DNA of 64,000 bases, from assembly GCA_017656385.1 (NCBI GenBank), contig JACDNX010000006.1, forward strand, positions 1 through 64,000. The letters run 5' to 3'. The stretch's first letter is position 1; every line of letters starts with the position of its first letter. This document shows, one piece after another, positions 4,801 to 21,106 of the stretch. This stretch comes from Thermodesulfobacterium sp. (GTDB lineage: Bacteria > Desulfobacterota > Thermodesulfobacteria > Thermodesulfobacteriales > Thermodesulfobacteriaceae). The position numbers were made by a program, and so were the translations under genes. The notes beneath the pieces were generated by a model, which was not told where the DNA came from, did not search any database, and saw only the letters and a program-made list of their open reading frames with translations.

Positions 4801-4814
4801 TTAAGGAGGTTTCG

Positions 4815-5927
4815 ATGGAATCTTTGTTAGAACCTGTTAAAAACTTAACAGAATACCTAAACTATGTAATATTCGGAATTCCTCTTTATAAAATAGTTTT
4901 AGCATCATTAGTTCTTCTTCTTTCTCTTTTTTTAAGAAAATTTTTTATTTTGGTAGTGGTAAGATTTATAGAACGCTTAGCAAAGAAGAGTTCTACTGAG
5001 TTAGATGACCTTCTTATAAGTATTACTTCCAAACCTCTTAGTTTTTTAATTATAATTGTCGGTTTATTTGTAGCTTTTCTAATACTTGGAATGGAACACA
5101 GCATAATTGCCAAACTCATTAAAAGTCTGATTATTATCGTTATTTCTTGGACTTTGTATAATCTTGTGGTGGGGCTAAGCAATTATATCTACAAATTTAC
5201 AGAAAAATTTGGAGAGGAAATAGCAAAAGAACTCGGAAGTTTTTTAATAAAGCTTTTTAAAATTTTCGCTGTGGGAATTGGAGTTCTTGCTATTCTTCAG
5301 GAATGGGGAATAAACATAAGTGCTGTTATTGCTTCTTTGGGACTTGGTGGTCTTGCTTTTGCCCTTGCTGCCAAAGATACAGCAGCAAATCTCTTTGGTG
5401 GATTAACAGTTCTTGTAGATAAAACCATGAAGGTGGGAGATTGGATAAAAATAGGTGATGTAGAAGGAATTGTAGAAGATATAGGATTAAGATCAAGTAA
5501 AATAAGGAGTTTTGAAAAAAGCTTAATTGTTATCCCCAATCAAATACTTGCCAACCAATCCTTAGAAAATTTTTCCAGAAGAAATGTTAGAAGAATAAAA
5601 ATGGTTATAGGAGTAACCTACAACACAACAAGAGAACAAATGGTTAAAATACTTAATGAAATTAGAGATATGTTAAAAAATCACCCAAGAATTGCCAAAG
5701 ATCAACTTTTAATGGTCTATTTTACAGACTTTGGGGACAGTTCTTTAAATATTTTTATTTACTGCTTTACAAATACTGCTAAATGGGAAGAATATTTGGC
5801 TATAAGGGAGGATGTAAATTTAAAGATTATGGAAATTATTGAAAGAAATGGTGCTTCCTTTGCATTTCCAAGCACATCAATATATGTGGAAAAACTGCCT
5901 AATTTCTGGAATAAAAAAGAGGCTTAG
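4815..5927 (+). CDS. MscS-family mechanosensitive ion channel
   Basis: Likely an inner-membrane tension-gated channel that protects against osmotic downshock. The 370 residues start with hydrophobic segments at about 22-48, 73-92 and 96-118, followed by the pore-lining helix with the typical Ala/Gly pattern (about 168-190, with SLGLGGLAFALAAKDTAANL split around the pore) and the cytoplasmic beta domain (GDWIKIGDVEGIVEDIGLR). A ribosome site AGGAGG precedes the ATG. The gene ends tail to tail with the ArsA-like gene, overlapping it by 4 bases. MscS-like proteins vary in gating, so conductance is not implied. Confidence 0.92.
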   Translation: MESLLEPVKNLTEYLNYVIFGIPLYKIVLASLVLLLSLFLRKFFILVVVRFIERLAKKSSTELDDLLISITSKPLSFLIIIVGLFVAFLILGMEHSIIAKLIKSLIIIVISWTLYNLVVGLSNYIYKFTEKFGEEIAKELGSFLIKLFKIFAVGIGVLAILQEWGINISAVIASLGLGGLAFALAAKDTAANLFGGLTVLVDKTMKVGDWIKIGDVEGIVEDIGLRSSKIRSFEKSLIVIPNQILANQSLENFSRRNVRRIKMVIGVTYNTTREQMVKILNEIRDMLKNHPRIAKDQLLMVYFTDFGDSSLNIFIYCFTNTAKWEEYLAIREDVNLKIMEIIERNGASFAFPSTSIYVEKLPNFWNKKEA

Positions 5928-7066
5928 CTAAATCCTATTTCTAAAAATTTTTCTTTAATAACTGCACCCTTTATCTCTTTGTTTAGCAATACTCTCGGAA
6001 GGAAAAAGTGCTTCTTGTGATTTCCAATTTTAATAATTAAATCCTCATCCTTTTGATAAACTTCAAGCTCTTCCTGTGGAACCTCTTTTAAAGCTAACTT
6101 TAAGATGTATTCTCCATTCTTTTCCAGAATTTCAAAAGGCTTATCCTTGTAAAATACCTCAGCAGGGTTTTTGTCCTGATAAATTCTTTTCCCAAATTTC
6201 TTTAGTTTTTCATAACCCAAGATTTCTTCGTAAAGCTGTGGAATCATAAAAATGGGGGTTGGCTCAAAGCTTTTTGCAATTCTTTCTACATATTTTCTTT
6301 GGATTTCGTAAAAAGGACTCCCCTTTTCAGCTACCCGATTTATAAAAACCCCATCAACAGGGAAACCAAAAAGATGAAGATAGGTAAAGGCTTTTTCTGT
6401 CTCCTTTATTACCATTTTTTCAGGATTAACAACCAGCCTTACTGAAGAAACTTGACTATTTTGCAAAAGATAATAAAGGTTATACACCTGTCTAAAAAGA
6501 TCCTCTAATGCATCATAGGTCTCCTCTTCTGGAAGGGGTATATCAGTAACTACTCTGGCTGCAGGTCTTATAAACTTCATAAGTTTCCTCTGTAAAGGAA
6601 GTATTTTGGTTATCCACCAGCTTGCTGCATCTGGAAGGCTTAAAAACCTTAAAGTCTCTCCTGTTGGTGCAGAATCAACAATAATAACATCAAATTTTTT
6701 ATCTTCTACATGTTTGTTTATCCACAAAAACGAGGAAACTTCTTCCATACCAGGCAAAACTGACATCTCTTCAGCTAAAATCTCATCTATCCCTTGCCAT
6801 TTAAGAAGACTTTTTAAATATTCCTTTAAAATTCCCCAAAATTTTTCTATTGAGTAATAAACATCTATTTCTTGGGCATAAAAGTTACTAAAAATTTTTT
6901 TTGGCTCTGGCCCTACATCTTCCTCTAATACATCAGAAAGTGAATGAGCAGGATCAACAGAAACCACTAAGACTTTTTTACCAAGCTCTGAGAGATAAGT
7001 ACCTGTTGCTGCTGAAAGGGTGGTTTTCCCTACTCCTCCCTTTCCTGTAAAAAGAATTATTCGCAT
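5924..7066 (-). CDS. ArsA/Get3-family ATPase with C-terminal HSP20-like domain
   Basis: A soluble SIMIBI-class ATPase. The deviant Walker A GKGGVGKTTLSAATG is at residues 8-22, the A-loop DPAHSLSDVL at about 39-48, and the switch DSAPTGETLRFL at about 131-142. The last 70 residues form a small beta-rich domain like the HSP20-like tail of bacterial ArsA homologues. Family members are arsenite-pump ATPases, Get3-like tail-anchored protein chaperones or proteins of unknown role. No ArsB pump or ArsR is nearby, so arsenic resistance is not supported. The gene follows a 69-residue gene by 7 bases on the same strand and is probably its functional partner. Confidence 0.88.
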   Translation of the reverse strand: MRIILFTGKGGVGKTTLSAATGTYLSELGKKVLVVSVDPAHSLSDVLEEDVGPEPKKIFSNFYAQEIDVYYSIEKFWGILKEYLKSLLKWQGIDEILAEEMSVLPGMEEVSSFLWINKHVEDKKFDVIIVDSAPTGETLRFLSLPDAASWWITKILPLQRKLMKFIRPAARVVTDIPLPEEETYDALEDLFRQVYNLYYLLQNSQVSSVRLVVNPEKMVIKETEKAFTYLHLFGFPVDGVFINRVAEKGSPFYEIQRKYVERIAKSFEPTPIFMIPQLYEEILGYEKLKKFGKRIYQDKNPAEVFYKDKPFEILEKNGEYILKLALKEVPQEELEVYQKDEDLIIKIGNHKKHFFLPRVLLNKEIKGAVIKEKFLEIGFS

Positions 7067-7073
7067 TTAAACC

Positions 7074-7283
7074 TTAACTCTTTTCAACCTTTACTTTTTT
7101 AATTTCTTTTTTGCCTTTTTCCAGTTCTTCAATCCTCTTTTCTATCACACTTTTTAAGGCAAGCAGTATTTCTTTTCTTGCATTTTTAATATGTTTTTTA
7201 CTTTCTTCTGGAACAAAAGAAAACATTTCTTCAATAAAAGCATCCCAAGCTTGAGCCAAATGCTCTATCCATTTATGTCTCAT
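7074..7283 (-). CDS. Small helical, charged protein next to the ArsA-like ATPase
   Basis: 69 residues, not recognised. The first half is amphipathic helix with aromatic residues (WIEHLAQAWDAFIEEMF), the second a Lys/Glu helix ending in a basic tail. No signal peptide or membrane segment. A strong ribosome site (AGGAGGTG) precedes the ATG. The seven-base gap to the ATPase gene points to co-translation, so a client, adaptor or regulator of the ATPase is the simplest guess. Confidence 0.75.
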   Translation of the reverse strand: MRHKWIEHLAQAWDAFIEEMFSFVPEESKKHIKNARKEILLALKSVIEKRIEELEKGKKEIKKVKVEKS

Positions 7284-7317
7284 TCAATTTTCACCTCCTT
7301 TTTACTGGAATAGGTAA

Positions 7318-7389
7318 AGCCGGCGATGGGATTCGAACCCATGCCCTGCTGATTACGAATCAGCTGCTCTACCGCTGAGCTACGCCGGC
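7318..7389 (-). tRNA. tRNA-Thr(CGT)
   Basis: A full cloverleaf on the minus strand: acceptor stem GCCGGCG/CGCCGGC, D arm with AGCGGTAGA, anticodon stem GCTGA/TCAGC around the loop TTCGTAA (anticodon CGT), and T loop TTCGAAT. The discriminator is T and no CCA is encoded. It lies between the FAD oxidoreductase gene and the ArsA pair. Confidence 0.96.
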
Positions 7390-7439
7390 TTATACTTATA
7401 AATATAAATTCTTATTTTAAAAATGGCAAACCAAAATTT

Positions 7440-8402
7440 TTAGCCTGAAAGATACTTCTCTTTTATTCTTTTTATAATGATGTGAGCTGAATTAAAGGCT
7501 TTCATTATGCTTCCTTGCTTTAAAGCTATATCTCCAGCTAAGAAAACCTTTGGTAAATTGGTCTCAAAAAACTCATCCATTAACGGCTCTCCTTTTCCAT
7601 CAAATTCAATTCCTATCCTTCTCAAAAAATTTTTAGGAGTAGTTCCTCCTAAGCAATAATAAATGAGATCATATATTTCCTTTTTTCCATCTTTAAAAAA
7701 AACTTTTACTCTATCATTATAGGATTCTATCTTTTCTATATCTGTTGCCATAAGGAGCGTTAATCTCCCCTGCTTTTTTCTTTTTTCCAAGTTTTTCAAA
7801 TTAATTTCGTTTATTCTAAAAAACTGAGGTCTTCTATAAGAAAGAAAAACTTGATTTGCTTCACAAAGAGCACATGCAACCTCTGCTGCTGTATTCCCTC
7901 CTCCAACTACTAAAACTTTCTTATTTTTGGGTATCTCAAGAGGAGGTTCTAAAAACACCTTATCTTCAAGTTCCTTAGGTATTGGATAGGATGGTCTATT
8001 GGGTTTCCCAAAAATACCTATAGCTATAACTACATATTCTGATAAAAACTCTGGTTTATCTTTTACAAAAATTTCATATTCTCCATTCCTTTTTTTAATT
8101 TCTGTAACTTCAGATTTTAACCTGATATCCAGCTTCCATTTCTTTACCCAATTTTCTATTCTCTGAAGAAATTCTTCTTTGGTCTCTGTTTCAAAGGAAC
8201 ATATCCCTAATGGTTTTATATCCTCTTTTCTAAAATTTGCGTCCACTCTTTTGCCTGGTTTATAAAATTTTACTATGGTGTTACAAATACATTCTGATCT
8301 TTCCAGAACCACTACAGGTTCTATATTATTAGCCTTTGCTTCTATAGCTACTGCAATACCTGCTGGTCCTGCGCCGATAACAGCAATCTTAACCTTCTCC
8401 AT
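7440..8402 (-). CDS. FAD-dependent pyridine nucleotide oxidoreductase (YpdA / thioredoxin-reductase-like)
   Basis: 320 residues with two dinucleotide folds: the FAD site VIGAGPAGIAVAIEA at residues 8-22 and the NAD(P) site VVGGGNTAAEVACAL at about 168-182, plus the distal FAD motif with VFLAGD near residue 295. No CxxC redox pair is visible between the folds, so it is closer to YpdA-like or ferredoxin/flavodoxin-reductase-like enzymes than to true thioredoxin reductase. A GGAGG site precedes the ATG. It sits 40 bases downstream of the last small gene of the acetyl-CoA operon and may be part of it. A redox link to that pathway is possible but unproven. Confidence 0.82.
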   Translation of the reverse strand: MEKVKIAVIGAGPAGIAVAIEAKANNIEPVVVLERSECICNTIVKFYKPGKRVDANFRKEDIKPLGICSFETETKEEFLQRIENWVKKWKLDIRLKSEVTEIKKRNGEYEIFVKDKPEFLSEYVVIAIGIFGKPNRPSYPIPKELEDKVFLEPPLEIPKNKKVLVVGGGNTAAEVACALCEANQVFLSYRRPQFFRINEINLKNLEKRKKQGRLTLLMATDIEKIESYNDRVKVFFKDGKKEIYDLIYYCLGGTTPKNFLRRIGIEFDGKGEPLMDEFFETNLPKVFLAGDIALKQGSIMKAFNSAHIIIKRIKEKYLSG

Positions 8403-8442
8403 AAAATCCTCCGGCTAATTCAAGTCTATCCCACCTGAGAAA

Positions 8443-8613
8443 TTAAACCTCTTTCATTTTTAAAGAAATAAAAAGCATACATCTATCTCTATATGGACAG
8501 TAGCCCTGAGGATTTTTACATCCTCTTTTTAGTTCTATATATTCTTTAAACTTCTCACACCAAACTTTCTCATTTCTGTTTTTTTCTTCATTTTTATTAT
8601 CTCTCGATTCCAT
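8443..8613 (-). CDS. 56-residue Cys-rich protein at the end of the acetyl-CoA operon
   Basis: ATG at 8613, stop at 8443. The polar N-terminus leads into a segment with four cysteines at residues 19, 32, 39 and 45, embedded in KRGCKNPQGYCPYRDRC. The spacing (C-x12-C-x6-C-x5-C) suits one zinc or iron-sulfur site. It starts 13 bases after the stop of the acsC-acsE fusion and keeps the strand, so it is probably translated from the operon, although the ribosome site is weak. I do not recognise the family. It could be a metal-site accessory or a small electron carrier; these are guesses. Confidence 0.7.
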   Translation of the reverse strand: MESRDNKNEEKNRNEKVWCEKFKEYIELKRGCKNPQGYCPYRDRCMLFISLKMKEV

Positions 8614-8626
8614 CTTTTTACTTACT

Positions 8627-10957
8627 TTAAACTTCTAACCATGATTCAGAAAATATAGTTTCTCCTGTTAAAACCTTAACGGTCTTGTATATTTCAGTTT
8701 CCTTAGGTGAAAGCTTTTGAGTATCTATTTCTTCTCCTTCCATTATCCTATGCACAAGTGAAACCCATTGAGGATGTTTACCCTTAGCAATTTCTATCAG
8801 TTCTTTATCGTATATGTCAAGTATTGCACTATAAAGATTGTATTTCATAAGCATCATAAGCATAACTCTGTTTAAATAAGGCCTTAAATGAGGAGCTACT
8901 CCATTGGAAACATTTGAAAGGCCAACAATTGTTTTAACTCCTGGTGTAACTTCTTGAAGCATGGAAAGAAAGTTAAGAATCTCTCTAATCTGTTGAGCTC
9001 CAAGAGTTATAGGGGTAAGAACAGGATCAACCCATATTTTTTCATTTGGTATATCGTATTCATTAAGTTTTCCTACCAGATCCACTGCAAGGGAGGCTCT
9101 TTCATTGGCATCTCTTGGAAGCCCTGATTCTCCCCATAAAAGTGCAACCACATCACAACCGGTTTCAGCAGCAAAAGGTGCAAGTCTGTTTAGTCTTTCA
9201 GGATGAATAGTAATGGAATTTATAAGTGCTTTTGAGGGCTGTTTTGAAACCTTAAGCCCTGCTATCATTGCATCTGGATTTGTAGTATCAAGTGAAATAG
9301 GAATATCTACCACCTCTTCAACAATTCTTACAATCCAAGGTGCCAGTTCTTGAGCATCCTTTTTTGCTGGTCCTATATTTAAATCCAAATACTCTGCTCC
9401 AAGTTCAGCACTTTCCTTAGCCATCTTTTGAATAGGCTGTGCTTGGCGTTCTTTTATGGCCTTCCCTATTCTTTTTGACATTATATTGATATTTTCAGCT
9501 ATACAGACCACTTTGTGGTTGCCTTCTTCTTTTTTTTCTTTTTCTTTCTTAACTGCTTGTTTTTCCTCCTCTACCACTTCTATCCTTTCAGTTTTTTTTT
9601 CTTTTTTTAATTCTTCAGTAAAATTTTTAAAAAAAGCTGGTATCCCACTTGCTTCTCTTGGCCCTACAATAATTTCCCACCCAGGCAATTCCTCCTCAAG
9701 TTCTCCTTTTATACCAGCTAAGTATCCGGGAATAATGAGCTTTCTGTGTTTAATTTTTTCTTCAATTCCACATTTTTTAATAAACGGAGCTATGGTATCA
9801 GCTCCAAACTTACCAGCTGCCCAAGCTGTAAGAACTGATAAACCATCTGTATCTTTTATAAGAAGCCAGGTTGGAACCCTGCTTGCTTCAATTTCACCAT
9901 TTACAATAAAATAAGTAAGAGCAAAGTTACAAGTTATAGCAACTAAAGAGTTCTCGTCAGGACCGTTTATAGGATAAATACCCTCTTCCACAACAAGTGG
10001 TTTTTGAGGATCTGTATAGATATTCATTCTTTCTACTAAGAGATTAAACAAAGCTTCTGGCTTTAGATCCGAAAGAATAATGATGCTACTGTATTTACAA
10101 ATGAGTGCACTTGCAATGAGTGCCTCAAAAAGATAAGAACTTGTATAGCGGTATGGGAAAGTTATAACCGGAAAACCAAAAGGTTTAAATCTATTCTTAA
10201 CAGCTGTTTTTCTTATAATTATCAAATCTTCAAAAAGCTCTCTTACTCCTTGAGAACCAGGATCAAGAACAAGCTTTCTTAAACCCTTTTTTAAAGCCTT
10301 TTCAGATAATTTAGAAATTTCATCTAAGCTCTCACCTATTATGGTAAGAGGTGCTTGAGTCTCAATAGAAAGCTTAGAAAGTTCCTCAAAATTTTGAGAA
10401 CCGGCACCGTAGATCAAGGGTTTAAAATCTCCGCATACTTCTATAGCCTCTCTTAGTATTTTAGTCTCTGAAGATGCTAGAACTAAAGCCACCCAGGGGA
10501 GTTCACTTCTTACTTTTCTGGTAATTTCTACCAGTTTACCCCCGTTTTCTTCATCTTGTAGAAATAAAATCTCAGGTTTAAGGGTAATTCCTACCCTTTC
10601 CCATTTCAGTTTTTTATAAAGCTCTATTCTCCTTAAAATTTCTTCTTCTTGCATTTTTGTTGAGATAAAAGTTCCTATAAGTGGAGGATTTTCAAAGCGT
10701 TTATCGTGTCTGAAAAGGACACTTTCTCCACCCAGAAAATAGGTATATTCACCTCCGCCGAGTTCTACTTTTTTTACAGGTGGAGCTGAAGCTTCAGCAA
10801 TTTCTTCTTTAACTGCAGGGTCAACATAAGGACAGGCATTTATATCTGCCTGACCCGCAGCCACCTTCATAGCAAATGCCATACAGGTAGAAAATCCACA
10901 TTCCTTGCAATTTGTCTTAGGTAATTTTTTTAAAATCTGAATCCCTGTAAGACCCAT
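8627..10957 (-). CDS. acsC-acsE: Fused corrinoid Fe-S protein large subunit (AcsC) and methyl-THF:corrinoid methyltransferase (AcsE)
   Basis: Residues 1-446 are AcsC: a [4Fe-4S] site with Cys17, Cys20, Cys25 and Cys42, a TIM barrel, and the cobamide-binding end closing with VGPREASGIPAFF, where free AcsC normally stops. A 33-residue Lys/Glu linker (447-479) follows. Residues 480-776 are the pterin-binding methyltransferase AcsE, with IAENINIM, DLNIGP, LDTTN, WVDPVLTP and GLSNVSNG as family landmarks. Together these move the methyl group from methyl-tetrahydrofolate to cobalt and on to ACS. In the acetogens I know, acsC and acsE are separate genes. An insertion of about 25 residues lies near the AcsE C-terminus. 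Lies 21 bases after acsB. Confidence 0.95.
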   Translation of the reverse strand: MGLTGIQILKKLPKTNCKECGFSTCMAFAMKVAAGQADINACPYVDPAVKEEIAEASAPPVKKVELGGGEYTYFLGGESVLFRHDKRFENPPLIGTFISTKMQEEEILRRIELYKKLKWERVGITLKPEILFLQDEENGGKLVEITRKVRSELPWVALVLASSETKILREAIEVCGDFKPLIYGAGSQNFEELSKLSIETQAPLTIIGESLDEISKLSEKALKKGLRKLVLDPGSQGVRELFEDLIIIRKTAVKNRFKPFGFPVITFPYRYTSSYLFEALIASALICKYSSIIILSDLKPEALFNLLVERMNIYTDPQKPLVVEEGIYPINGPDENSLVAITCNFALTYFIVNGEIEASRVPTWLLIKDTDGLSVLTAWAAGKFGADTIAPFIKKCGIEEKIKHRKLIIPGYLAGIKGELEEELPGWEIIVGPREASGIPAFFKNFTEELKKEKKTERIEVVEEEKQAVKKEKEKKEEGNHKVVCIAENINIMSKRIGKAIKERQAQPIQKMAKESAELGAEYLDLNIGPAKKDAQELAPWIVRIVEEVVDIPISLDTTNPDAMIAGLKVSKQPSKALINSITIHPERLNRLAPFAAETGCDVVALLWGESGLPRDANERASLAVDLVGKLNEYDIPNEKIWVDPVLTPITLGAQQIREILNFLSMLQEVTPGVKTIVGLSNVSNGVAPHLRPYLNRVMLMMLMKYNLYSAILDIYDKELIEIAKGKHPQWVSLVHRIMEGEEIDTQKLSPKETEIYKTVKVLTGETIFSESWLEV

Positions 10958-10978
10958 TTATACTTCCCCTTTTAAAAT

Positions 10979-13201
10979 TTACATAATAGGTGGTAATTTA
11001 AGCACTGGATGGTTTACTTTTTTTATCCAGTTAATAAGTTCTTCCTCTGTATTAACCGTGGTCTCATCTGCAATTTTTTCCAGAAAATCTGGAACACCCA
11101 ATTCTTCTGCTCTTTTCTGGAGTCTTTCTCTTAACTCTTCTTTTAACATCTTGGGCATCCAAACAATTCTTAAAAATCCATCTTCTGCAGAAATAAACTT
11201 TTTGGAAGTAATGTATTGTTTGGAAATACCTAAAAATCCCGGAGTTACATTTCCTCCACCTATCATTCCTGCAAGAGTAGAAAATTTAAATCCAATTGGT
11301 GTTTCTTTAGTAAACTCTCTATTTACTATGATTATTCCATTAGATCTTGCAGAGACAGCTGCAATGGCTTCCATACAACCACATACAGTCATCGGATTAT
11401 TGACTATACTATACAAACTAACTCTATCTACTGTACCTTTGGAAGCTTTTTTAATAAACTCATTTACCCCTTCAAATTGACCCAATTTCAAATCAATAGG
11501 CTTTCCTTTTAAAATTGGCTGATTTGGTCCAGCAGGATTGATCTGATAATAAGCCTTTCCATCAAGCCAGCTATAAGCTCCGCAAGGGCCTCCTCTTTCA
11601 GGAGTAATTACACAAACATGGGTAGGTGCAAAACTCTGACATAAAGTGCAGGAATAAAATACATCTACATTCTCATCAACCATATCTGCAAGCCTTGCAT
11701 CTCTTTTTTCATATACACCTTTAGCCATTTCCAATATTTCTTTCACCCTCTCCTCATCTGTATAGATTGTAACCTGACACTTGTCTACTATTGCACTAAA
11801 ATCCTGTTTAATTCTGGCATACAAAATCTTCCCAATGTGTTTAAAAAGAAAACCCTTTTCAACAGCCTGTTTGCTAACTCTAATCCATACTATGTTCCTC
11901 TGCCCTATATGCATAATCCCTTGAGCATAGTTGATGAAATAATGAAACTGTCTTTCAATAATGGGTTCAAAATCTTCTTGCATATTTGCACCAGCTACTT
12001 TCACCACTATAGCAAGAGGCACTCTATAAGGTGGGCCCTTTTCATCAATTTTGGGAAGGTCAGAAATTTCAGGGCCTACAACCTCTATTTCACCATCTTT
12101 TATATCTTCAAAAGATGTAGATATTAAAAGTTCTACTGCAGGGCTTTTCCCTCCACCACATTCTAAAAACAGATCTTCTTTTCTAACTCTTTCTCCTTCA
12201 AAAGCAGGTGCATAAGCTACAGGAACATCTATTTTTGTTGTAGCAACTTTAACTCCTCTTACAAAAAGTGCTTTTTCAACAATTTCCTCATGAGGCACTT
12301 TTGATACCAGATGTTCATAAGTGCAAACTCCGTAAGGTTTAATTTCTGGCAATTCCCAGTCAGAAATGGTTGGAAATCCCCAATTCATTGCTCCAGCTGC
12401 ATTTGCAGCCCACTCTTCCGAAGGAGGTCCAAAAGCAATTACAAAAGCATAGGTTCTATCTTTGTTAAAAAGCAGATTATTTATATAATCTCCTGGTTTT
12501 ATCCCTCCAAAGGACATGGCAACTCTGCAAGCAAAACCGATAGCAAAAACTACACTTGTGTAATCTGGACCAAAGGGTATCAGTCTTACAGGCCAACCGA
12601 GTTGAATTCCTGCTTCTTTAAGTAGGTAGGGCATATAAATGCCATTTGTTTGATCATGCATAAAAACATAAAGTGATCTTTCAAGGAGTTCTTGAGTTAT
12701 CTTTTTTGCTGTTTCTTTATCAGAAGGAGAGCCAAGTAAAACTGCAAAACCAGGAGCTGTCCCATCAACAAACTCAACCCCTCTTTTTCTAAAGATAACA
12801 TCGTCTGCTGCTCCAAGCCAAATGTTTTCTTCTGTAGGCTCTTCAGTTTTTGTATATAAATCAGGTTTTTCCAAATAGTTTATAGCCTCAATTATTTCTT
12901 CTGCAAAAAAAGTGGCCATTCCTGCATCAAGTGCTGGACCTAAGTACGGAAGACTATGCTTCTCAGAAGGAACTTTAGGTAAAAGCTTTTTAGCTTCCTG
13001 TAAAATCTCTTCACAATCACCAAGCCTCTTTACTGGATAACCCAGTATGGCATAAATAACAGGTAAATAATAAGCTGTATTGGGAAATCCTATCTCAGTA
13101 GATTTCCCAAATTTTTTTACAGCGGATTCATATTTTTCCCATGCTCTTTCTATAATTTTATGTGCACCTTTTATAGCTACACTAAAAATTATCTTAGACA
13201 T
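10979..13201 (-). CDS. acsB: Acetyl-CoA synthase catalytic subunit
   Basis: Joins CO, a methyl group and CoA into acetyl-CoA at the A-cluster. 740 residues, the full bacterial length, including the N-terminal CODH-binding domain that archaeal versions lack. The A-cluster [4Fe-4S] ligands are all present: Cys518, Cys521, Cys530 and Cys540 in YSCTLCQSF...VCVITPERGGPCG. The nickel-binding Cys-Gly-Cys motif is at 607-609 (TVCGCMEA). The C-terminal motif TPIGFKFSTLAGMIGGG is also intact. It lies between acsD and acsC-acsE with short gaps (19 and 21 bases). Nothing suggests loss of activity, in contrast to the CODH-like protein upstream. Confidence 0.98.
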   Translation of the reverse strand: MSKIIFSVAIKGAHKIIERAWEKYESAVKKFGKSTEIGFPNTAYYLPVIYAILGYPVKRLGDCEEILQEAKKLLPKVPSEKHSLPYLGPALDAGMATFFAEEIIEAINYLEKPDLYTKTEEPTEENIWLGAADDVIFRKRGVEFVDGTAPGFAVLLGSPSDKETAKKITQELLERSLYVFMHDQTNGIYMPYLLKEAGIQLGWPVRLIPFGPDYTSVVFAIGFACRVAMSFGGIKPGDYINNLLFNKDRTYAFVIAFGPPSEEWAANAAGAMNWGFPTISDWELPEIKPYGVCTYEHLVSKVPHEEIVEKALFVRGVKVATTKIDVPVAYAPAFEGERVRKEDLFLECGGGKSPAVELLISTSFEDIKDGEIEVVGPEISDLPKIDEKGPPYRVPLAIVVKVAGANMQEDFEPIIERQFHYFINYAQGIMHIGQRNIVWIRVSKQAVEKGFLFKHIGKILYARIKQDFSAIVDKCQVTIYTDEERVKEILEMAKGVYEKRDARLADMVDENVDVFYSCTLCQSFAPTHVCVITPERGGPCGAYSWLDGKAYYQINPAGPNQPILKGKPIDLKLGQFEGVNEFIKKASKGTVDRVSLYSIVNNPMTVCGCMEAIAAVSARSNGIIIVNREFTKETPIGFKFSTLAGMIGGGNVTPGFLGISKQYITSKKFISAEDGFLRIVWMPKMLKEELRERLQKRAEELGVPDFLEKIADETTVNTEEELINWIKKVNHPVLKLPPIM

Positions 13202-13220: not shown

Positions 13221-14465
13221 TTAATTTGCCATCAAGAGATCAAAAAACGATTGACAAAGTTCTATAGCTTTAGGGTGTCTCATTATCAACAAATCTCCTC
13301 CAGCAAGAGAAAGCACTATTGCTGTAATTGCTTCCATCAGCACACCTCTTGTTTCCTGCTCTCCAAAAATATCATCTGTAGGTAGTTGTGCCTCTTTGGT
13401 TGCCCAGACCTCTCTTCCAACAGCACATACAAAAGGAGATTGTAAAGTCGTATCATTGTAATACAAAGCTGCAATCCTTATTCTCTCCATCACCGAATAG
13501 GCATACTCAATTCCATACCCCAATGCACCTATAGAAGGATCCATTATTATCTTATCTAAGGGTAATCCCATGTTTTCAAGAAGTATGTTAAGCTGTTTTG
13601 CCAAATTAACATCTATAGGACTTGATGCAATTACAGGTAAATTATATCCCATTGCAACAGCTGCCAGAGTTCTGTAATTACTCTCCAAGAGAGGTCCTAT
13701 TGCTATTCCTTTTCCTCCTATTAACTCTGCAACTTCTTTTATTATTTTTACATCCTTTTCAGAATTGCCAGAGCCCCATATAATAATAGGCACATCAACT
13801 GAATCTGTCACTTTTTTTACCACTTGTTTAGCATGCTCGGCATCAAGATTTAAGTAATTGGGATCTGTTCCTTGTAAATAAAGACATATAGCCTCTGCAC
13901 CATAAACTTCAACACACTTTTTTGCCCAAAGAGCTGGATCATGAAAAACATCAGAAAAATATTTAGCCAAACTTTCAGGCCAGTCTTCTGGTTTAACATC
14001 CAAAATTTCCATAGCAATTTTTACTCCGTTCCCCATATGCCCTTCAAAAAGATAAAAAGGTAAACAGGTCTCTCCTCCAACTTTTAAACTTCTTTCTCCC
14101 CCTCCTATTACAACCTCTCTTATCTTTTCAGTGGTAACATCCTTATAAAGACTTTCAGAAATATTTTTAGCTCTCTCTGATAAAGGTCTGTAAATATTGG
14201 TAGGCTCAGCTTTTGCTATTTGTTCTATTTTTGTTTTTTTCTCTTCTTTTTTTACTGATATAACTTTCTCTTCAACCTTTAATTCTTCTTTTTCTTCTTT
14301 CAATTCTTTTTCTTCCACAAAAATTGTTTTATTAAACAACTCTGTTTCAAGCCTTTCTATTCCCTCTTCCAGCTGTTCAATCCCTGCATGAAGACTCTTT
14401 AAACCCAGTCTCAGGTCTGATAAAATATCAATCAGGCTTTTTAAAAGCTCTTTTTCATTTTGCAT
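13221..14465 (-). CDS. acsD: Corrinoid Fe-S protein small subunit with N-terminal heptad extension
   Basis: The core (about residues 90-414) is the TIM-barrel small subunit that pairs with AcsC and holds the cobamide; SLKVGGETCLPF, EGHMGNG and VWATKEAQLP are typical landmarks. The N-terminus carries about 90 extra residues: a helix with leucines at 18, 25, 32, 39 and glycines at 21, 28, 35, then a Glu/Lys linker. The same pattern, one residue earlier, starts the CODH-like protein of this operon. The family usually begins near the barrel at about 310-320 residues, so the extension is an addition. It most likely serves as a docking helix. Confidence 0.96.
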   Translation of the reverse strand: MQNEKELLKSLIDILSDLRLGLKSLHAGIEQLEEGIERLETELFNKTIFVEEKELKEEKEELKVEEKVISVKKEEKKTKIEQIAKAEPTNIYRPLSERAKNISESLYKDVTTEKIREVVIGGGERSLKVGGETCLPFYLFEGHMGNGVKIAMEILDVKPEDWPESLAKYFSDVFHDPALWAKKCVEVYGAEAICLYLQGTDPNYLNLDAEHAKQVVKKVTDSVDVPIIIWGSGNSEKDVKIIKEVAELIGGKGIAIGPLLESNYRTLAAVAMGYNLPVIASSPIDVNLAKQLNILLENMGLPLDKIIMDPSIGALGYGIEYAYSVMERIRIAALYYNDTTLQSPFVCAVGREVWATKEAQLPTDDIFGEQETRGVLMEAITAIVLSLAGGDLLIMRHPKAIELCQSFFDLLMAN

Positions 14466-14493: not shown

Positions 14494-15417
14494 TCAACAA
14501 ATTTTTGGTCTAGGGTAAAGCTTTGCCCTCTTTACAATTTCAGGAACAATAAATTCCCATCCAATTGCCATGATATGGACCCCGCTAACACCAGGATTTT
14601 CTTTAACTCTTTCTATAATTTCCACCGCAATATTAATCCCTTCTTCTTTTTCATCTTTTGCAGATTCCATTCTCCTTATCAGCTCGTCTGGAACCTCTAT
14701 TCCAGGAACTTTGTTCTCTTTCATATATTTAAGCATTTTTAAAGATTTGGGCGGAGCAATACCAGCAAGTATGTAAACTTTTTCTAATATACCTAAATCT
14801 TCACACAATCTTATAAACTTTTCAAATCTCTCTAAGTTGTAAACTATCTGAGTTTGAATAAATCTTGCTCCTGCCTTTATTTTTTTTGCCAATCTTATCG
14901 GTCTAAACTCTAATGGATCGGCAAAGGGGTTTTCCACTGCTCCTATAAAAAAATAAGGATGTTTCCCTTTAACTTCTTTTTTATTAAAAAATCTACCTTC
15001 AGAAAGATTTTTTGCTAAGCTAATTAGCTGAATTGAATCTAAATCAAAAACAGGCTTTGCTTGCGGATGATCTCCCAAGCTTACATAATCTCCTGTTAGG
15101 CACAAAATATTTTTAACTCCCAGAGCTGAAGCTCCCAGCAAATCAGATTGAATGGCTATTCTATTTCTGTCTCTGCAGGTAATATGCATTACAGGTTCAA
15201 TATTTTCTTTTTGTAAAATAACTGCTCCTGCAAGGCTTGACATTTTAACCGTAGCCCTTGGTGAATCTGTAATGTTAACTGCATCCACATAGCCTTTTAA
15301 CCACCTTGCCTTTTCTTTTATCAACTTAGGATCTGCATTCTTAGGAGGCTCTATTTCTGCAGTAACTGCAAATTGACCTGATTCCAACACTTTTTGAAGA
15401 TTAGTTTTTATTTCCAA
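14494..15417 (-). CDS. metF: Methylenetetrahydrofolate reductase, MetF subunit
   Basis: Reduces methylene-THF to methyl-THF, the last step of the methyl branch. 307 residues forming one FAD-binding TIM barrel. Landmarks are AEIEPPKN near residue 20, VNITDSPRA near 48, HITCRDRNR near 79, LTGDYVSLGDHP near 105 and FIQTQIVYN near 188. It overlaps metV by 17 bases, a tight pairing typical of the two-subunit MetVF enzyme of acetogens. No HdrABC or RnfC2 genes accompany it here, so its electron donor is not shown. Confidence 0.95.
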   Translation of the reverse strand: MEIKTNLQKVLESGQFAVTAEIEPPKNADPKLIKEKARWLKGYVDAVNITDSPRATVKMSSLAGAVILQKENIEPVMHITCRDRNRIAIQSDLLGASALGVKNILCLTGDYVSLGDHPQAKPVFDLDSIQLISLAKNLSEGRFFNKKEVKGKHPYFFIGAVENPFADPLEFRPIRLAKKIKAGARFIQTQIVYNLERFEKFIRLCEDLGILEKVYILAGIAPPKSLKMLKYMKENKVPGIEVPDELIRRMESAKDEKEEGINIAVEIIERVKENPGVSGVHIMAIGWEFIVPEIVKRAKLYPRPKIC

Positions 15418-16078
15418 CTCTCAACCCCTCTCTCAATTCTCTTATTCCTTCACCATAAAGACTTCTCCAATCTTTTGCTTCCCATATTTCCATTAATTTT
15501 TCGAGTTTTCCTCTTTTTTTAAGCCTTTTTATAATTTGATACCACACACAGGGTAACCCTTTTCTTACTTCACATACTCCATTTTTAGATCCACCACATG
15601 GCCCATTAAGCATATTTTTAGGACATCTTGTTATTGGACAAAGCCCAGCAGTATAACCTACTATACAATCTCCGCAAGCCCTACATTTTTCAATACAAAT
15701 ACCTTCTCTTAACTCTGCACCCAAAAATAAAGTATTCATTCCTGGATATACTTCTATTTCAGAATAAATATCCGCTATTAAATTAACCCCCACTCCGCAA
15801 CTCAATGTTACTACTGCCTTAACCTCTTTTATTAAATCATTTATACCTTTCACATATCGAAGTTCACACAGTCTAATTAATGTTTTTTCTAAAATTTCTA
15901 TGGATTTCCCCAAGTCTCTCATTTTGTTTTTTATCTCTTCGGCAAGCCTTTTTACTGCATCTCCACCAGATGTTGCACAGCCATAAGGACATTCCTGACA
16001 TCCCAGCACAAGAATTTTATCATGTTCCTCTATATAGCTCAAAATTTCTTCTAATGGCTTTCTTTTGATTACTATCAT
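15401..16078 (-). CDS. metV: MetV, zinc/iron-sulfur partner of methylene-THF reductase
   Basis: 225 residues with many cysteines: CQECPYGC at about 27-34, LSCGVG near 94, and a dense C-terminal cluster (CIEKCRACGDC, CPITRCPKNMLNGPCGG, GVCEV, PCVW). The last cluster is the hallmark of the MetV/MTHFR C-terminal domain, which in characterised acetogens links MetF to an electron donor. The gene lies between the CODH-like gene and metF and overlaps metF. The assignment rests on the Cys signature and the metF pairing. Confidence 0.92.
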   Translation of the reverse strand: MIVIKRKPLEEILSYIEEHDKILVLGCQECPYGCATSGGDAVKRLAEEIKNKMRDLGKSIEILEKTLIRLCELRYVKGINDLIKEVKAVVTLSCGVGVNLIADIYSEIEVYPGMNTLFLGAELREGICIEKCRACGDCIVGYTAGLCPITRCPKNMLNGPCGGSKNGVCEVRKGLPCVWYQIIKRLKKRGKLEKLMEIWEAKDWRSLYGEGIRELREGLRVGNKN

Positions 16079-16091
16079 CCGGCTTTTCTCC

Positions 16092-18392
16092 TTAATTAAT
16101 TGACCGATTTTCTAAAATTTCAAAAAATCCAGATTTATGAATAGAAGAAATATATCTTTTTTCATCAAGAGTTCTTCTCATAGCCATATCATAAAAAATC
16201 CTTGGCCTTAACTGATCAATGCCGAGTTTTTTTCTTTTTTGCTTAATTCTATCTATTATAATCCCTGAAAACTCACTTGCTGTTTTTGCAAATCTAATAG
16301 ATCCTCCGAAATACTTTTCTACTTCTTCAAAAAGAAATTTGTTTGTTTTTTTGTTTTCCACGATTAAATTTCCAGGATCAAAAACAACCTGTAATCCGCT
16401 TGAAACAAAACACATTATCGTAGATAAAGCTTTTTCATTCACCCACTGAGGCAAACATATTATAACAGGAAGCTCACATATATCTTTACCCAACCCGCCA
16501 GTATTAACCATTTCTGTTAAAACTGTAAGAACTCTTGAGTTAGACACACAGGATCCCGTATTCAACACAGGCGGACATCCTATTGCTTCAAGGACTTCTC
16601 TTAATCCTTCACCAGCAAGTTGAGACGCCTCTGGAACTAAGAGTCCTGCCATACCAAGTTTAATCGCAGAACAACCTGTAGAGAAAACAAGCACATTATT
16701 ACTTATTAGCTCCTTTGCCAGCTCTACTTGAACATTTTCATTCACTCCAAATTGATCACAACCTGAAATTAGTGCTATACCCAAAATTTTTCCGTTAATT
16801 ATATTTTCATTTAAAATACTTAATCCTGCCCTAAATCTTCCTCCCATAACATACATAAGAGCCTCTGCACTAAATCCTGAAATTGCCTCAATTGCTTCAT
16901 CAGGAATATAAATCCTTGTTGAATCTCTTTTAGAATATCTTGAAACAGCAATCTTTAAAATTTCCTTTGCACTTTTTAAAGGATATTTTCTGTTAAATTC
17001 AACACAAATAGCACCCTCCATCAGGGATATCGGATTTGTGGTGATAACTGCCGTGTGAAACCTATTTGCTACTTGCACCACATTTGGTATAAGTCTTCCT
17101 ATTATTGCTTCCACCGCTCCTGTAGCAATAACTGCTTCTTGATAAGCAAATGAACCAGCAACAGGGAAACCCTTTCTCATTAAAATTTCATTTCCTGCAC
17201 AACCCAATCCAACGAGATTAACACCCTTTGCACCTGCCTTTTTAGCCAGTTTGAGAATTTCTAAATCCTTGGAAGCCTGTATCAAAGCCTCAGCAACCAA
17301 AGGATCCTCTTCACAGACTACAACATTTACCATATCTTCACGAATAACCTCTTTACCTATGTTAACCTGCGCTCTAACTGGTTGAGGAGTACCTAAAAGG
17401 ATATCTTGCAATTCTGTGGCTATCATTGAAGCACCCCAACCATCAGCAAGGGCACACCTTAGAGATGCAAACAAAATATTTTTATAATATTGATCAACCC
17501 CTAAGGAAGTTCTGTAAATAAGCTCTGCAATCTCTCTGTCAATACCTCTTGGCATAACCTCATATTTTCTCCACTTTTCAATTAAAGTCTTAGGAGCTCT
17601 GTGAGCCAAAATTAACTCTCCTTTTTGTTGAAAAAAGATTTTACTAATTTTGTCTACAACCTCATTTAATATCTCCTCTTCTGATTTTTCCAGATTAATT
17701 CCTAACGCATAAGCAAACATTTTTAGCTTTCTTTTGTCTCTGAATTTAAACGGAATTTCTCCTTTAACGATATCGTTTAAAGTCTCTACTATAGATTTTG
17801 CGTAATCTGCTTGTGCTGAAACTCCTGCTGCAACTAATCTTGCAAAATTTCTCGCAGAAACTAAACTTGCATCTGCTCCACAAATCCCTTTTAATTCTTC
17901 TACCCCCTCAACAACTTTGCAAGGGCCCATATTACAAACTCTGCAAATCACTTCTCCTTTATCTACCTCGCCAATTTTGGTCTTTTCTGCTCTTTTTAAA
18001 ACTGTATATAAATCGGAAAATTCTCTGTGTAATCTGTCATAAAGTTTTCCCAGAGTTTTATTGTAAAAACCGATTTTTATCTCTTCTGCAGATTCTATCT
18101 CAGCTGGTTTAGAAACTTCTGATTTTTCTTCCATTTCCGGTTCAATCTCTATCTTTTCTATCTTTATCTCCACACTTTCCTCTTTTTCCTCAACAAATTT
18201 CAAAGCTTCAAATTCCTTAGAGATCATCTTATGAAGTTTTTCAAGTGCTTCTTTGTTGATGTTAAGAATATCTTTTTCTAACTTGCTCAGCCCTTTTTCT
18301 AATACTACCATACCTGATTTAAGAGCCTTTATACCTGTTTTTAAACTTAAAAATATTTCTCTTAATTCTTTTGTTGAATTTTTATTTGACAT
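16092..18392 (-). CDS. CODH-family (AcsA/CooS-like) protein with altered C-cluster ligands and N-terminal heptad extension
   Basis: 766 residues, about 130 longer than typical CooS. Residues 1-44 are a leucine heptad helix with Gly20, 27, 34, followed by a Glu-rich linker to about 110. The CODH fold starts near 110. B-cluster cysteines are kept (150, 153, 158, 171). Of the C-cluster ligands in C. hydrogenoformans CooS-II numbering, Cys295, Cys446, Cys476 and Cys526 are kept (398, 545, 574, 615) and Lys563 is Lys654. His261 is Glu362 (local VCEEDP instead of HGHNP). Cys333 is lost with a three-residue deletion near 432. His93/96/99/102 are Gln194, Tyr197, Ser200 and Glu203. D-cluster cysteines 39 and 47 are missing. 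It occupies the acsA position, but normal CO dehydrogenase activity is doubtful. Confidence 0.9.
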   Translation of the reverse strand: MSNKNSTKELREIFLSLKTGIKALKSGMVVLEKGLSKLEKDILNINKEALEKLHKMISKEFEALKFVEEKEESVEIKIEKIEIEPEMEEKSEVSKPAEIESAEEIKIGFYNKTLGKLYDRLHREFSDLYTVLKRAEKTKIGEVDKGEVICRVCNMGPCKVVEGVEELKGICGADASLVSARNFARLVAAGVSAQADYAKSIVETLNDIVKGEIPFKFRDKRKLKMFAYALGINLEKSEEEILNEVVDKISKIFFQQKGELILAHRAPKTLIEKWRKYEVMPRGIDREIAELIYRTSLGVDQYYKNILFASLRCALADGWGASMIATELQDILLGTPQPVRAQVNIGKEVIREDMVNVVVCEEDPLVAEALIQASKDLEILKLAKKAGAKGVNLVGLGCAGNEILMRKGFPVAGSFAYQEAVIATGAVEAIIGRLIPNVVQVANRFHTAVITTNPISLMEGAICVEFNRKYPLKSAKEILKIAVSRYSKRDSTRIYIPDEAIEAISGFSAEALMYVMGGRFRAGLSILNENIINGKILGIALISGCDQFGVNENVQVELAKELISNNVLVFSTGCSAIKLGMAGLLVPEASQLAGEGLREVLEAIGCPPVLNTGSCVSNSRVLTVLTEMVNTGGLGKDICELPVIICLPQWVNEKALSTIMCFVSSGLQVVFDPGNLIVENKKTNKFLFEEVEKYFGGSIRFAKTASEFSGIIIDRIKQKRKKLGIDQLRPRIFYDMAMRRTLDEKRYISSIHKSGFFEILENRSIN

Positions 18393-18424: not shown

Positions 18425-19327
18425 TTATTCTACTTCATTTGGAAGACCGTTCCACATTTTTGCTGCTTCAAGGGTATTTTTCATAAGCATGGTAATGGTC
18501 ATAGGTCCAACTCCACCCGGGACAGGAGTAATAGCTTTTGCCTTTTCCTTAACATTTTCAAAATCTACATCTCCACAAAGAATAGCTTTTCCTTCTGGTG
18601 TAGTTCCAATCCTATTTACACCTACATCAATTACCACTGCTCCATCCTTTACCATATCAGCAGTAACAAATTTGGGTTTCCCCACAGCTACAATTAAAAT
18701 ATCTGCTCTTTTTGTATGAGAGGCTAAATCTTTTGTTCTTGTGTGGCAAACTGTTACAGTTGCATTGCCCACAGTCTTTCTTTTCTGCATAAGAAGATTT
18801 GCTATGGGTTTCCCCACAATATTGCTTCTCCCCACAACAACAACCTCTGCTCCTTCAACCTGGCATCCAATTTTTTCCAAGATTACCAAGATACCATAAG
18901 GTGTGCATGGTAAAAAACAGGGTTCTCCTATAACCATTTTTCCTACATTAACTGGATGAAAGCCATCTACATCTTTTCTGGGATCTATGGCACTTATTAC
19001 TCTTCTTTCATTTATGGATTTCGGTAAAGGGAGCTGAACCAGTATCCCATGAATTCTCAAATCTTTATTGTATTTATCAATAAGCTTTATCAACTCATCT
19101 TCTGAAGCACTTTCAGAAAGTCTTTCTTCCACAGAATAAAATCCGAGTGCTTGAGCTACCTTTTGTTTCCCTTTAACATAAGAAATTGAAGCTGGATCAT
19201 CTCCTACTAAAATAGTAACAAGTCCAGGAACAATATCATATTTTTCTCTCAATTCTTCAACCTCTTTCTTAATCTTTTCTCTTATCTCCTGAGCTATGGA
19301 TTTTCCATCTATAATTCTTGCTACCAT
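18425..19327 (-). CDS. folD: Bifunctional methylene-THF dehydrogenase / methenyl-THF cyclohydrolase
   Basis: Converts formyl-THF to methylene-THF in two steps of the methyl branch. The 300 residues contain the substrate site YVKGKQKVAQALG with Tyr and Lys near 50-54, the family motif QLPLPKSI near 98, and the NADP site VVGRSNIVGKPIANLL near 165. PVPGGVGPMT is at about 270. Length and motifs are standard. No separate fchA is present, which fits a bifunctional FolD. It lies 15 bases after fhs and 32 bases before the CODH-like gene. Confidence 0.97.
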   Translation of the reverse strand: MVARIIDGKSIAQEIREKIKKEVEELREKYDIVPGLVTILVGDDPASISYVKGKQKVAQALGFYSVEERLSESASEDELIKLIDKYNKDLRIHGILVQLPLPKSINERRVISAIDPRKDVDGFHPVNVGKMVIGEPCFLPCTPYGILVILEKIGCQVEGAEVVVVGRSNIVGKPIANLLMQKRKTVGNATVTVCHTRTKDLASHTKRADILIVAVGKPKFVTADMVKDGAVVIDVGVNRIGTTPEGKAILCGDVDFENVKEKAKAITPVPGGVGPMTITMLMKNTLEAAKMWNGLPNEVE

Positions 19328-19342
19328 TTTACTTCCTCCTTA

Positions 19343-21106
19343 TTAGAAAAGACCTTTTACTTTTCCTGTATCTAAATCCACATCAATTCTCCTGTAAGCT
19401 GGGTCTGAACCTGTTCCAGGCATAAGTTTTATTTCTCCAGCCACAGGCACTATAAAACCCGATCCCCTGTATATAAGAACATCTCTTATTCTCAGTTGCC
19501 ACTCCTTAGGAACCCCTTTTTTCCCAGGGTCATCGGAAAGAGAAAGATGAGTTTTTGCCATACAAATAGGCATCTTTTTTAATTCCTCATCCCTTTCAAT
19601 CAACTTGATTTTTTCTTCTGCTGCAGAGCTGTAGATTACTCCCTCTGCTCCATAGATCTCTTTTGCTATTTTTTCAATCCTTTTTTTTACAGGCTCATCA
19701 AGTTCATAGAGAAATTTAAACTGAGAAATTTCTTTAGATGCATCTATAACAGCATCTGCAAGCTCTAAAGCACCTTCTCCTCCTTTTAACCAGTGTTCAG
19801 AAAAAGCCACCCTCACCCCTAAATCTTCACAAAATTTTTTTACAAAATCAAGTTCCTTTTTAGTATCGGTATAAAATTTGTTAATGCACACCACGGGATT
19901 TATTCCGCTTTTTCTAACAATATTTATACAGTGAAGAAGATTTTCACATCCTTTTTTAATCCATTTTAAATTTTCTTCAAAATATTCTTTTGGTATAGAA
20001 CTTCCTGATTTGGGAACAGGAGCTCCACCATGGCATTTAAGCGCTCTTATAGTAGCAACTATTACTACTGCATCAGGAACAAGACCAGAAATTCTGCATT
20101 TTACATTCCAGAACTTTTCAAAACCTATATCTGCAGCAAATCCGGATTCAGTGACTACATAATCTCCAAGTTTTAAAGCAATGTAGTCGGCAATAACGGA
20201 TGATTGGCCCAAAGCAATGTTGCCAAAGGGACCTGTATGAACCAGAACAGGTTGCCCCTCTATTGTTTGCACAAGATTGGGATTAAGTGCATCAACAAGT
20301 AGAGCTGTCATAGCTCCTGCTACCTCTAAATCTTCTGTAGTTATAGGATTGCCGTATCTGTCAAGAGCAACAACTATTTTCCCAATTCTTTTTCTTAAAT
20401 CTTTTAAGTTTTTTGCAATTGCTAATATTGCCATTACTTCAGAAGCACCAGAAATATAAAATTTGCTTTCCATAGGATATCCATCCATTTTACCACCGAG
20501 CCCTATAACAATGTGTCTCAATGCTTGGGCACAAAAATCTATAACCCATCCCATTTCAACCCTTTTAGAATCTATGTTCAACCTTTTTAAGCCTTTTTTA
20601 GCCAAAATCTCATCACTATAATTTGCTTCGTGTTGCATTCTTGCTGTAAGGGCAACCATAGCAAGATTGTGGGCATTCATTACTGCATTAATATCTCCTG
20701 TGAGCCCTAAGGAAAATTTATCCAGCGGAATAACTTGAGAAAGACCTCCTCCAGCAGCCCCCCCTTTAATATTAAAAATTGGTCCACTTGAAGGCTGTCT
20801 CATAGTTCCTATTACCTTTTTCCCTCTTTTCCCAAGCCCTTGAACCAAACCTATTAAGGTTGTGGTCTTCCCCTCTCCTAAGGGTGTTGGAGTAATGGCG
20901 GTAATATCTATGTATTTTCCATTAAGTCTATTCTTTAATCTTTCAAAAACTTTTTGGTAATCAATTTTAGCTATATAATGTCCATAGGGCAGGAGTTCTT
21001 CTTCTGTTAACTCCAGTTCTTCCCCTAACTGATATACAGTCTTCATGTTTTTCTCGGCTTCATAAGCTATTTCCCAATCTTTCATTTTTAAAGGATCGAA
21101 TCTCAT
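19343..21106 (-). CDS. fhs: Formate-tetrahydrofolate ligase
   Basis: Activates formate with ATP and THF, the entry step of the methyl branch. 587 residues. The P-loop TPTPLGEGKTTT is at about 71-82, and MRQPSSGPIFNIKGGAAGGG follows near 100. The Trp/aromatic folate site and the C-terminal LMPGTGSDPAYRRIDVD are present. A GGAGG-like ribosome site precedes the ATG. As the first gene of the long operon it is 119 bases from galE on the same strand, so the operon promoter lies in that gap or upstream of galE. No formate dehydrogenase is in the window. Confidence 0.98.
   Translation of the reverse strand: MRFDPLKMKDWEIAYEAEKNMKTVYQLGEELELTEEELLPYGHYIAKIDYQKVFERLKNRLNGKYIDITAITPTPLGEGKTTTLIGLVQGLGKRGKKVIGTMRQPSSGPIFNIKGGAAGGGLSQVIPLDKFSLGLTGDINAVMNAHNLAMVALTARMQHEANYSDEILAKKGLKRLNIDSKRVEMGWVIDFCAQALRHIVIGLGGKMDGYPMESKFYISGASEVMAILAIAKNLKDLRKRIGKIVVALDRYGNPITTEDLEVAGAMTALLVDALNPNLVQTIEGQPVLVHTGPFGNIALGQSSVIADYIALKLGDYVVTESGFAADIGFEKFWNVKCRISGLVPDAVVIVATIRALKCHGGAPVPKSGSSIPKEYFEENLKWIKKGCENLLHCINIVRKSGINPVVCINKFYTDTKKELDFVKKFCEDLGVRVAFSEHWLKGGEGALELADAVIDASKEISQFKFLYELDEPVKKRIEKIAKEIYGAEGVIYSSAAEEKIKLIERDEELKKMPICMAKTHLSLSDDPGKKGVPKEWQLRIRDVLIYRGSGFIVPVAGEIKLMPGTGSDPAYRRIDVDLDTGKVKGLF

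Follow-up and report, generated by a model that had tools for sequence, protein, structure and literature searches.

The acs operon described here raises the question of what a CODH subunit can be doing beside an intact acetyl-CoA synthase (ACS) when its own catalytic site is incomplete. The operon lies in a 64,000-nucleotide stretch of Thermodesulfobacterium sp. DNA (hereafter the window) from a genome that is 100% complete in 44 contigs (G000), and the order around the CODH-like reading frame is fhs-folD-CODH-metV-metF-acsD-acsB-acsCE. The genes were assigned as follows.

19343 to 21106, minus strand: Fhs, formate-THF ligase (sequence and synteny)
18425 to 19327, minus strand: FolD (sequence and synteny)
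16092 to 18392, minus strand: CODH-like subunit (acsA/cooS homologue) of 766 aa, C-cluster incomplete, proposed pseudoenzyme (ORF; TIGR01702; PF03063; alignment with PDB CODHs and relatives)
15401 to 16078, minus strand: MetV (PF12225, 118 bits)
14494 to 15417, minus strand: MetF, methylene-THF reductase (synteny; resembles the MetF portion of fused proteins)
13221 to 14465, minus strand: AcsD, the CFeSP small subunit, with a paired N-terminal coiled coil; separate from MetF, relatives having a fusion (profile and synteny)
10979 to 13201, minus strand: AcsB, acetyl-CoA synthase, A-cluster intact at C518, C521, C530, C540, C607 and C609 (NF040764, 1034 bits; A-cluster columns)
8627 to 10957, minus strand: AcsC::AcsE fusion, CFeSP large subunit plus methyltransferase (NF003195, PF00809/PRK07535); unfused in most relatives
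7440 to 8402, minus strand: flavoprotein of the YpdA/thioredoxin-reductase kind, lying downstream of acsCE in genomes of the degenerate clade (PF13738/TIGR04018)

The original prediction described the frame at 16092-18392 as a CODH-family subunit with a rebuilt C-cluster site. The frame is real and open at these coordinates, and aligning its product with CODHs from the PDB and more than 30 relatives, the check proposed at the time, returned the same ligand losses and the same residue numbers. Cys295, Cys446, Cys476, Cys526 and Lys563 correspond to C398, C545, C574, C615 and K654. His261 has become E362 in a VCEEDP motif where the canonical motif is VHGH[DEN]P (VHGHNP in the 6t7j alignment), Cys333 is gone through a deletion of three residues (AIIGR followed directly by LIP, versus VVVDVQCIM), the His93/96/99/102 run reads Q/Y/S/E, and the D-cluster residues C39 and C47 are absent. 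The corresponding parts of the gene are these.

18258 to 18392, minus strand: residues 1-45, N-terminal helical extension, homologous to the AcsD N-terminus and the MetF::AcsD linker helix
17880 to 17945, minus strand: B-cluster cysteines C150, C153, C158 and C171, intact; present without exception in the degenerate full-length copies and in 31 canonical CODHs
17307 to 17309, minus strand: Glu362 at the His261 position, the exo-iron ligand being lost (alignment; Lys, Asn, Gln or Thr in other degenerate copies)
17088 to 17102, minus strand: three-residue deletion removing Cys333 (AIIGR/LIP; alignment), common to G201 only
16548 to 17201, minus strand: retained C-site cysteines C398 (C295), C545 (C446), C574 (C476) and C615 (C526) (alignment)

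An alignment or sequencing error is ruled out, because each lost ligand falls in a column that is invariant among 31 canonical CODHs of the phylum and because the C333 deletion recurs in a relative that is 84% identical (G201). Nor has His261 simply been displaced: no other His occurs between residues 264 and 446, and H446 itself corresponds to the His of the FHT motif that canonical CODHs conserve.

By fold the protein is a CODH relative. It passes PF03063, the prismane/CODH fold family (390.7 bits; cut-off 27), narrowly misses TIGR01702 (469.1 bits versus a cut-off of 478), has CODH 6t7j as its top PDB match (7.7e-133, phmmer) and is 45-58% identical to canonical AcsA proteins of the phylum. 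All four B-cluster cysteines are present; the C-cluster set (His261, Cys295, Cys333, Cys446, Cys476 and Cys526) is broken by the change of His261 to Glu and the deletion of Cys333, and the D-cluster cysteines and the acid-base residue His93 have given way to Gly/Ile and Gln, respectively. It resembles CooS-type AcsA (PDB 1oao/1mjg, 7zkj, 6ytt) in its PF03063 domain, B-cluster, Lys563 and place in an acs operon, but differs in the loss of His261, Cys333, the D-cluster and His93, in an added coiled coil and in having no CooC or Hdr partners. On this evidence it is a CODH-family protein that lacks defining ligands and appears to have been retained as a partner of ACS.

His261, together with Cys295, holds the exo iron beside Ni. 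For Cys295 this role is described in PMC9311411, and C295A and C295E variants of a genuine CODH contain no Ni and do not oxidise CO (PMC9311411). The CODH-like protein should hold no Ni-Fe C-cluster and should not interconvert CO2 and CO. We consider it probable that it is a CODH pseudoenzyme, a scaffold of an ACS complex that receives no CO from it.

Comparison with sister genomes bears on whether the altered site is a new one. The window genome, G201, G198 and G100 (a closed genome of 1,634,377 bp, taken as Thermodesulfobacterium geofontis OPF15; PMC3624685) form a monophyletic clade at 100/100 in both the operon tree and the CODH tree, and none of the four retains His261, His93 or either D-cluster cysteine. 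At positions 261/295/333/446/476/526/563, the window protein has E, C, deletion, C, C, C and K; G201 has K, C, deletion, C, C, C and K; G198 has N, E, C, C, C, C and K; and G100 has Q, D, C, C, C, L and K. Of the other CODHs checked in the taxonomic order, 23/23 have canonical motifs. Ligand sets that differ in this way between sisters speak for relaxed constraint rather than a new defined cluster. The proposal that Glu362 or Cys360 supplies a rebuilt site did not survive this comparison, since neither residue is conserved and each lineage has lost a different set of ligands. The Glu362 position is occupied by Lys in G201 and by Asn or Gln in the other sisters, and Cys360 is common to G201 only.

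A related suggestion, that kinship with hybrid-cluster proteins (HCPs) makes a changed cluster plausible, leads to the idea of a new catalytic cluster of the HCP or CooS-V kind, used for example in hydroxylamine, NO or peroxide reduction. HCPs do belong to the same superfamily (PF03063), G198 has the C295-to-Glu exchange of CooS-V, T. geofontis has no separate HCP, and C-cluster variants can gain hydroxylamine reductase activity (PMC9311411, PMC6344411). In HCPs and CooS-V, however, neither the His261 equivalent nor the other cysteines have been lost (PMC10502027, PMC9311411), whereas His261 is gone in all copies, G198 included. Glu362 stands at the position of the HCP His ligand (equivalence from PMC10502027), and the HCP profiles TIGR01703 and PRK05290 gave no match to the window protein at E 0.001. 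Nor does the window protein fit the CooS-V type, in which C295 is Glu and the rest is kept: it retains C295 and is without His261 and C333. Carboxydothermus hydrogenoformans CooS-V is similar in being a CODH scaffold with a changed C-site ligand and in being inactive with CO, but only C295 is exchanged there, its His and other cysteines are kept, it carries an Fe-S-O cluster and it has no link to C1 metabolism (PMC9311411); the window clade, by contrast, never has His261, differs from genome to genome in what else is lost and carries the gene beside that for ACS. The window genome moreover has its own HCP, and in another relative, G200, the gene was lost along with ACS. We rate an HCP- or CooS-V-like catalyst as the least probable of the explanations considered.

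A plain cubane may nevertheless be left at the C-site, as each copy has at least three C-site cysteines, and this possibility weighs against a pure pseudoenzyme: C446 and C476 are kept in 5/5 degenerate full-length copies, so some Fe-S cluster may remain. In its stronger form this explanation holds that an ordinary [4Fe-4S] or [3Fe-4S] cluster on three or four cysteines, with neither exo-iron nor Ni, works with the fully conserved B-cluster to pass electrons that activate ACS/CFeSP. Each copy does have three to four cysteines around the cubane. Yet the window and G201 have lost C333, one of the cubane ligands, to a deletion, G100 has Leu in place of C526, none of the four genomes retains the D-cluster exit, and the differing ligand sets imply that no common cluster is under selection. 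Such an electron-passing role strikes us as unlikely, although it is the most serious competitor to a pseudoenzyme scaffold.

That the protein is a scaffold, and not merely a damaged enzyme, is suggested first by the pattern of loss. Among 155 columns invariant in the 31 canonical CODHs, 13/16 non-B-cluster Cys and His positions have been lost, as compared to 44/139 others (Fisher p=1.7e-4), and no B-cluster Cys and few Gly or Pro are among the losses, which indicates loss aimed at catalysis and not at the fold. Purifying selection is also evident. The dN/dS of the CODH-like gene is 0.277 (95% CI 0.21-0.36) between the window and G201, with no stops, and 0.276 between G100 and G198; this is about three times the AcsB value (0.08-0.11) and far below 1. 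AcsB is strongly constrained, its dN/dS lying between 0.04 and 0.12. The original prediction that the gene is not decaying is thus borne out by a frame open in four genomes, a dN/dS of 0.28 and the retention of fold residues and the B-cluster. The CODH/AcsB ratio of dN/dS is 2.5-3.4 in the degenerate clade and 1.3-2.0 in canonical pairs; the canonical pairs thus also show a somewhat higher rate for CODH than for AcsB, which counts against the pseudoenzyme.

The raised dN/dS could also be read as a locus on its way out, CODH and ACS both being relics without a current role, and one relative has gone that far. The nearest relative of the window genome, G200 (Fhs 95.6%), retains of CODH only an 82-aa relic and has no AcsD, AcsB or AcsCE (L147, G200:C2:8000-24202, 6751-12557); the deletion is clean, 6.1 kb being reduced to 169 bp within one contig. 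Fhs, FolD, MetV, MetF and the flavoprotein remain, leaving the formate-to-methyl-THF branch intact. The joint loss of CODH and ACS/CFeSP links the CODH-like protein to ACS, and the genes that are left indicate that the methyl branch can live without either. Against a relic locus in the window clade, ACS, AcsD, MetF and Fhs are strongly constrained (dN/dS 0.07-0.18 across genomes with dS of about 1), the A-cluster is intact everywhere, CODH is open in 4/4 genomes and a new coiled coil has been gained. None of the six A-cluster cysteines varies in any genome of the genus that covers that part, including those without any CODH. We find a relic locus improbable.

The coiled coil, too, points to a scaffold. 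An HMM built from the MetF::AcsD linkers and AcsD matches the N-terminus of the window CODH at 3.8e-7, the best unrelated ORF scoring 0.63, and the N-termini of the clade's CODHs score 1.7e-8, 3.8e-7, 1.3e-6 and, weakly, 0.0035. The similarity has a shuffle z of 8.0, and canonical CODHs do not have the segment. As judged from these similarities, the coiled coil is a copy from AcsD gained by the CODH-like proteins, and it probably ties them to AcsD, docking being what we infer from the shared helix. For a catalytically dead enzyme that has taken on a coiled coil from its neighbour, a scaffold is the best interpretation, which strengthens the docking role raised among the options of the original prediction and makes it the leading one. 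An AlphaFold model made from the window protein, L003 and L004 had a mean pLDDT of 44, too poor for use.

If the CODH-like protein makes no CO, a second CODH might do so. A PF03063 search of the whole window genome for a canonical cooS/acsA, suggested at the outset, returned only the CODH-like protein and one hybrid-cluster protein, and the same search of closed G100 found only the degenerate orthologue and no canonical CODH, so the absence is not an assembly artefact. As in Dehalococcoides, then, intact ACS and CFeSP genes occur in a genome without a canonical CODH. The PF03063 survey also found no Ni-CODH in closed G065 and G028. The cooC search proposed alongside detected no close CooC homologue in G000, G100, G198, G201, G065 or G028; homologues (39-46%) are present in G206, G199, G205, G202, G204 and G180, all of which have a canonical CODH. 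This absence is weak evidence, because some CODHs mature without CooC (PMC6006190) and G203 has a stand-alone CooS with no CooC detected. Negative searches of this kind depend on profile sensitivity and on draft completeness (82% for G201, 70% for G200). The operon had been called complete, a description that fails by comparison with canonical relatives, in which HdrA, MvhD, HdrC and MvhD genes lie between CODH and MetV; these are missing in the window clade. The YpdA-like flavoprotein is conserved in G100, G201 and G200, and it may be a replacement electron donor.

In the course of events that we favour, the lineage lost His261, the D-cluster and His93, as all four genomes show, and then further C-cluster ligands, which differ between species; the searches indicate that CooC and the Hdr/Mvh electron module disappeared along with the catalytic residues. 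The CODH fold and B-cluster remain, and purifying selection still maintains the protein, probably for a structural role in the ACS/corrinoid-protein complex, with the copied coiled coil probably tying it to AcsD. ACS, being intact, would work with CO made elsewhere. This CO might be taken up from geothermal fluid and joined with formate-derived methyl groups, or ACS might run backwards and break down acetyl-CoA made from acetate, yielding CO and a methyl group, a reaction that has been reported for Dehalococcoides mccartyi. We slightly prefer CO uptake; the gene content of G200 implies that acetyl-CoA cleavage is not essential for C1 supply. D. mccartyi is not known to have a CODH gene or MetF. 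Its Wood-Ljungdahl pathway is likewise incomplete, and its ACS has been proposed to supply C1 units by splitting acetyl-CoA, releasing CO in the process, according to a passage in PMC7918482 that cites Zhuang et al. 2014; the window clade differs in keeping a CODH-like protein and a full methyl branch.

One difficulty for a pseudoenzyme comes from physiology. T. geofontis is reported to need CO2 and to take neither organic acids nor alcohols as electron donors (PMC3624685). Were it a strict autotroph, CO or acetyl-CoA would have to be formed from CO2 in some way. Substitutes were sought in 14 genomes of the genus, and neither GCS-P, for a reductive glycine pathway, nor a citrate-synthase domain, for TCA-type fixation, was found; the latter result also means no ATP-citrate lyase or citryl-CoA lyase. 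With ACS intact, CO2 required (PMC3624685) and no other fixation pathway known there, the CODH-like subunit could still be imagined to reduce CO2 to CO, or to hand over a carbonyl, by an unusual site. The loss of the exo-iron ligand, the acid-base His and the D-cluster, the differing ligands of the sisters, the lack of CooC and an acetyl-CoA synthetase (acetate uptake) that is intact in 4/4 clade members all tell against this, and we hold it to be very improbable. We would be just as surprised if T. geofontis and its relatives proved to be autotrophs whose ACS receives CO made from CO2 by a subunit without exo-iron ligand, D-cluster or Ni maturation, which would imply a site or partner that forms carbonyl in a way no known CODH does. 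In G205, whose CODH/ACS is canonical, the gene for acetyl-CoA synthetase is in pieces (G205:C7:66855-68197); set against the window clade, where acetate activation is kept and CODH lost, this suggests that autotrophy and the use of acetate trade off against each other.

Our literature search found no report of a ligand-less AcsA-type CODH beside an intact ACS. Close parallels are the Cdh-type groups A-4 and A-6 (PMC6344411), which also have incomplete C-cluster motifs, no D-cluster and a place in clusters with ACS. In them the His and the first Cys are replaced by D,P or N,S, and their function was left undecided by the authors (PMC6344411). These groups belong to clade A (Cdh type), whereas the window protein is of the bacterial AcsA kind (clades E/F), all groups of which were reported complete after sequences with deletions at these sites had been filtered out (PMC6344411). 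The question left for Cdh-type enzymes now extends to the CooS type. A survey of Desulfobacterota pathways scored CODH/ACS by BLAST similarity and coverage and not by residues (PMC12827605); similarity-based annotation and surveys count these species as having complete CODH/ACS, and the residues say that the CO-making step is gone. With a ligand-less CODH beside an intact ACS, the pathway of these hot-spring sulfate reducers must use outside CO, run backwards or use new chemistry. The carbon source of a CO2-requiring hyperthermophile without another recognised route to acetyl-CoA is a puzzle for which the type strain is in culture collections.

A single genus offers the whole series, from canonical CODH through canonical plus tandem degenerate CODH and ligand-less scaffold to CODH-HdrC remnant and loss with ACS, and the series amounts to a natural experiment that can show which properties of a CODH partner ACS depends on. 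The remnant stage is found in a second clade (G065, G028, G199 and G206), where a CODH remnant of 470-489 aa without B- or C-cluster cysteines continues at its C-terminus into a ferredoxin segment with two clusters, which most resembles the operon's HdrC-like protein; MvhD, MetV and an intact ACS follow. An example is L078 13943-15358 (minus strand), with equivalents in L079, L080 and L081, in which the remnant joined to a two-[4Fe-4S] ferredoxin is followed by a 112-aa MvhD. The fusion has the look of a single large deletion whose outcome was retained.

The tandem stage occurs in the acs operon of G180 (L085, G180:C12:58000-77900), where a canonical CODH (4093-6108) is followed immediately by a degenerate copy (6122-7900). 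The latter has intact D- and B-cluster cysteines, Thr at His261, a deleted C295 and a changed K563. The CODH tree groups the window clade with this second copy at 93/94, the copy forming a long branch. The pair is possibly a heterodimer, or a stage giving rise to the window-type protein.

Several smaller observations were made along the way. A short way downstream of the acs operon, at 5924-7066 (minus strand) of the window, lies an ArsA/Get3-type ATPase with an HSP20-like domain, 94% conserved beside the operon in G200; it is not a CooC homologue. FdhG-like formate dehydrogenase genes are present at G000:C8:36620-39343 and at G100:C1:499594 and 1446299, with an in-frame TGA, probably encoding selenocysteine, in the G000 gene and one G100 copy and none in the matched stretch of 1446299. 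Finally, a CODH-like ORF from Lachnospiraceae (L004, JALERL010000064.1, 3588-5747) appears to combine an N-terminus like an ABC-transporter substrate-binding protein with a CODH domain in which Glu (VQEV) takes the place of Cys333, which fits the clade B/transporter link.
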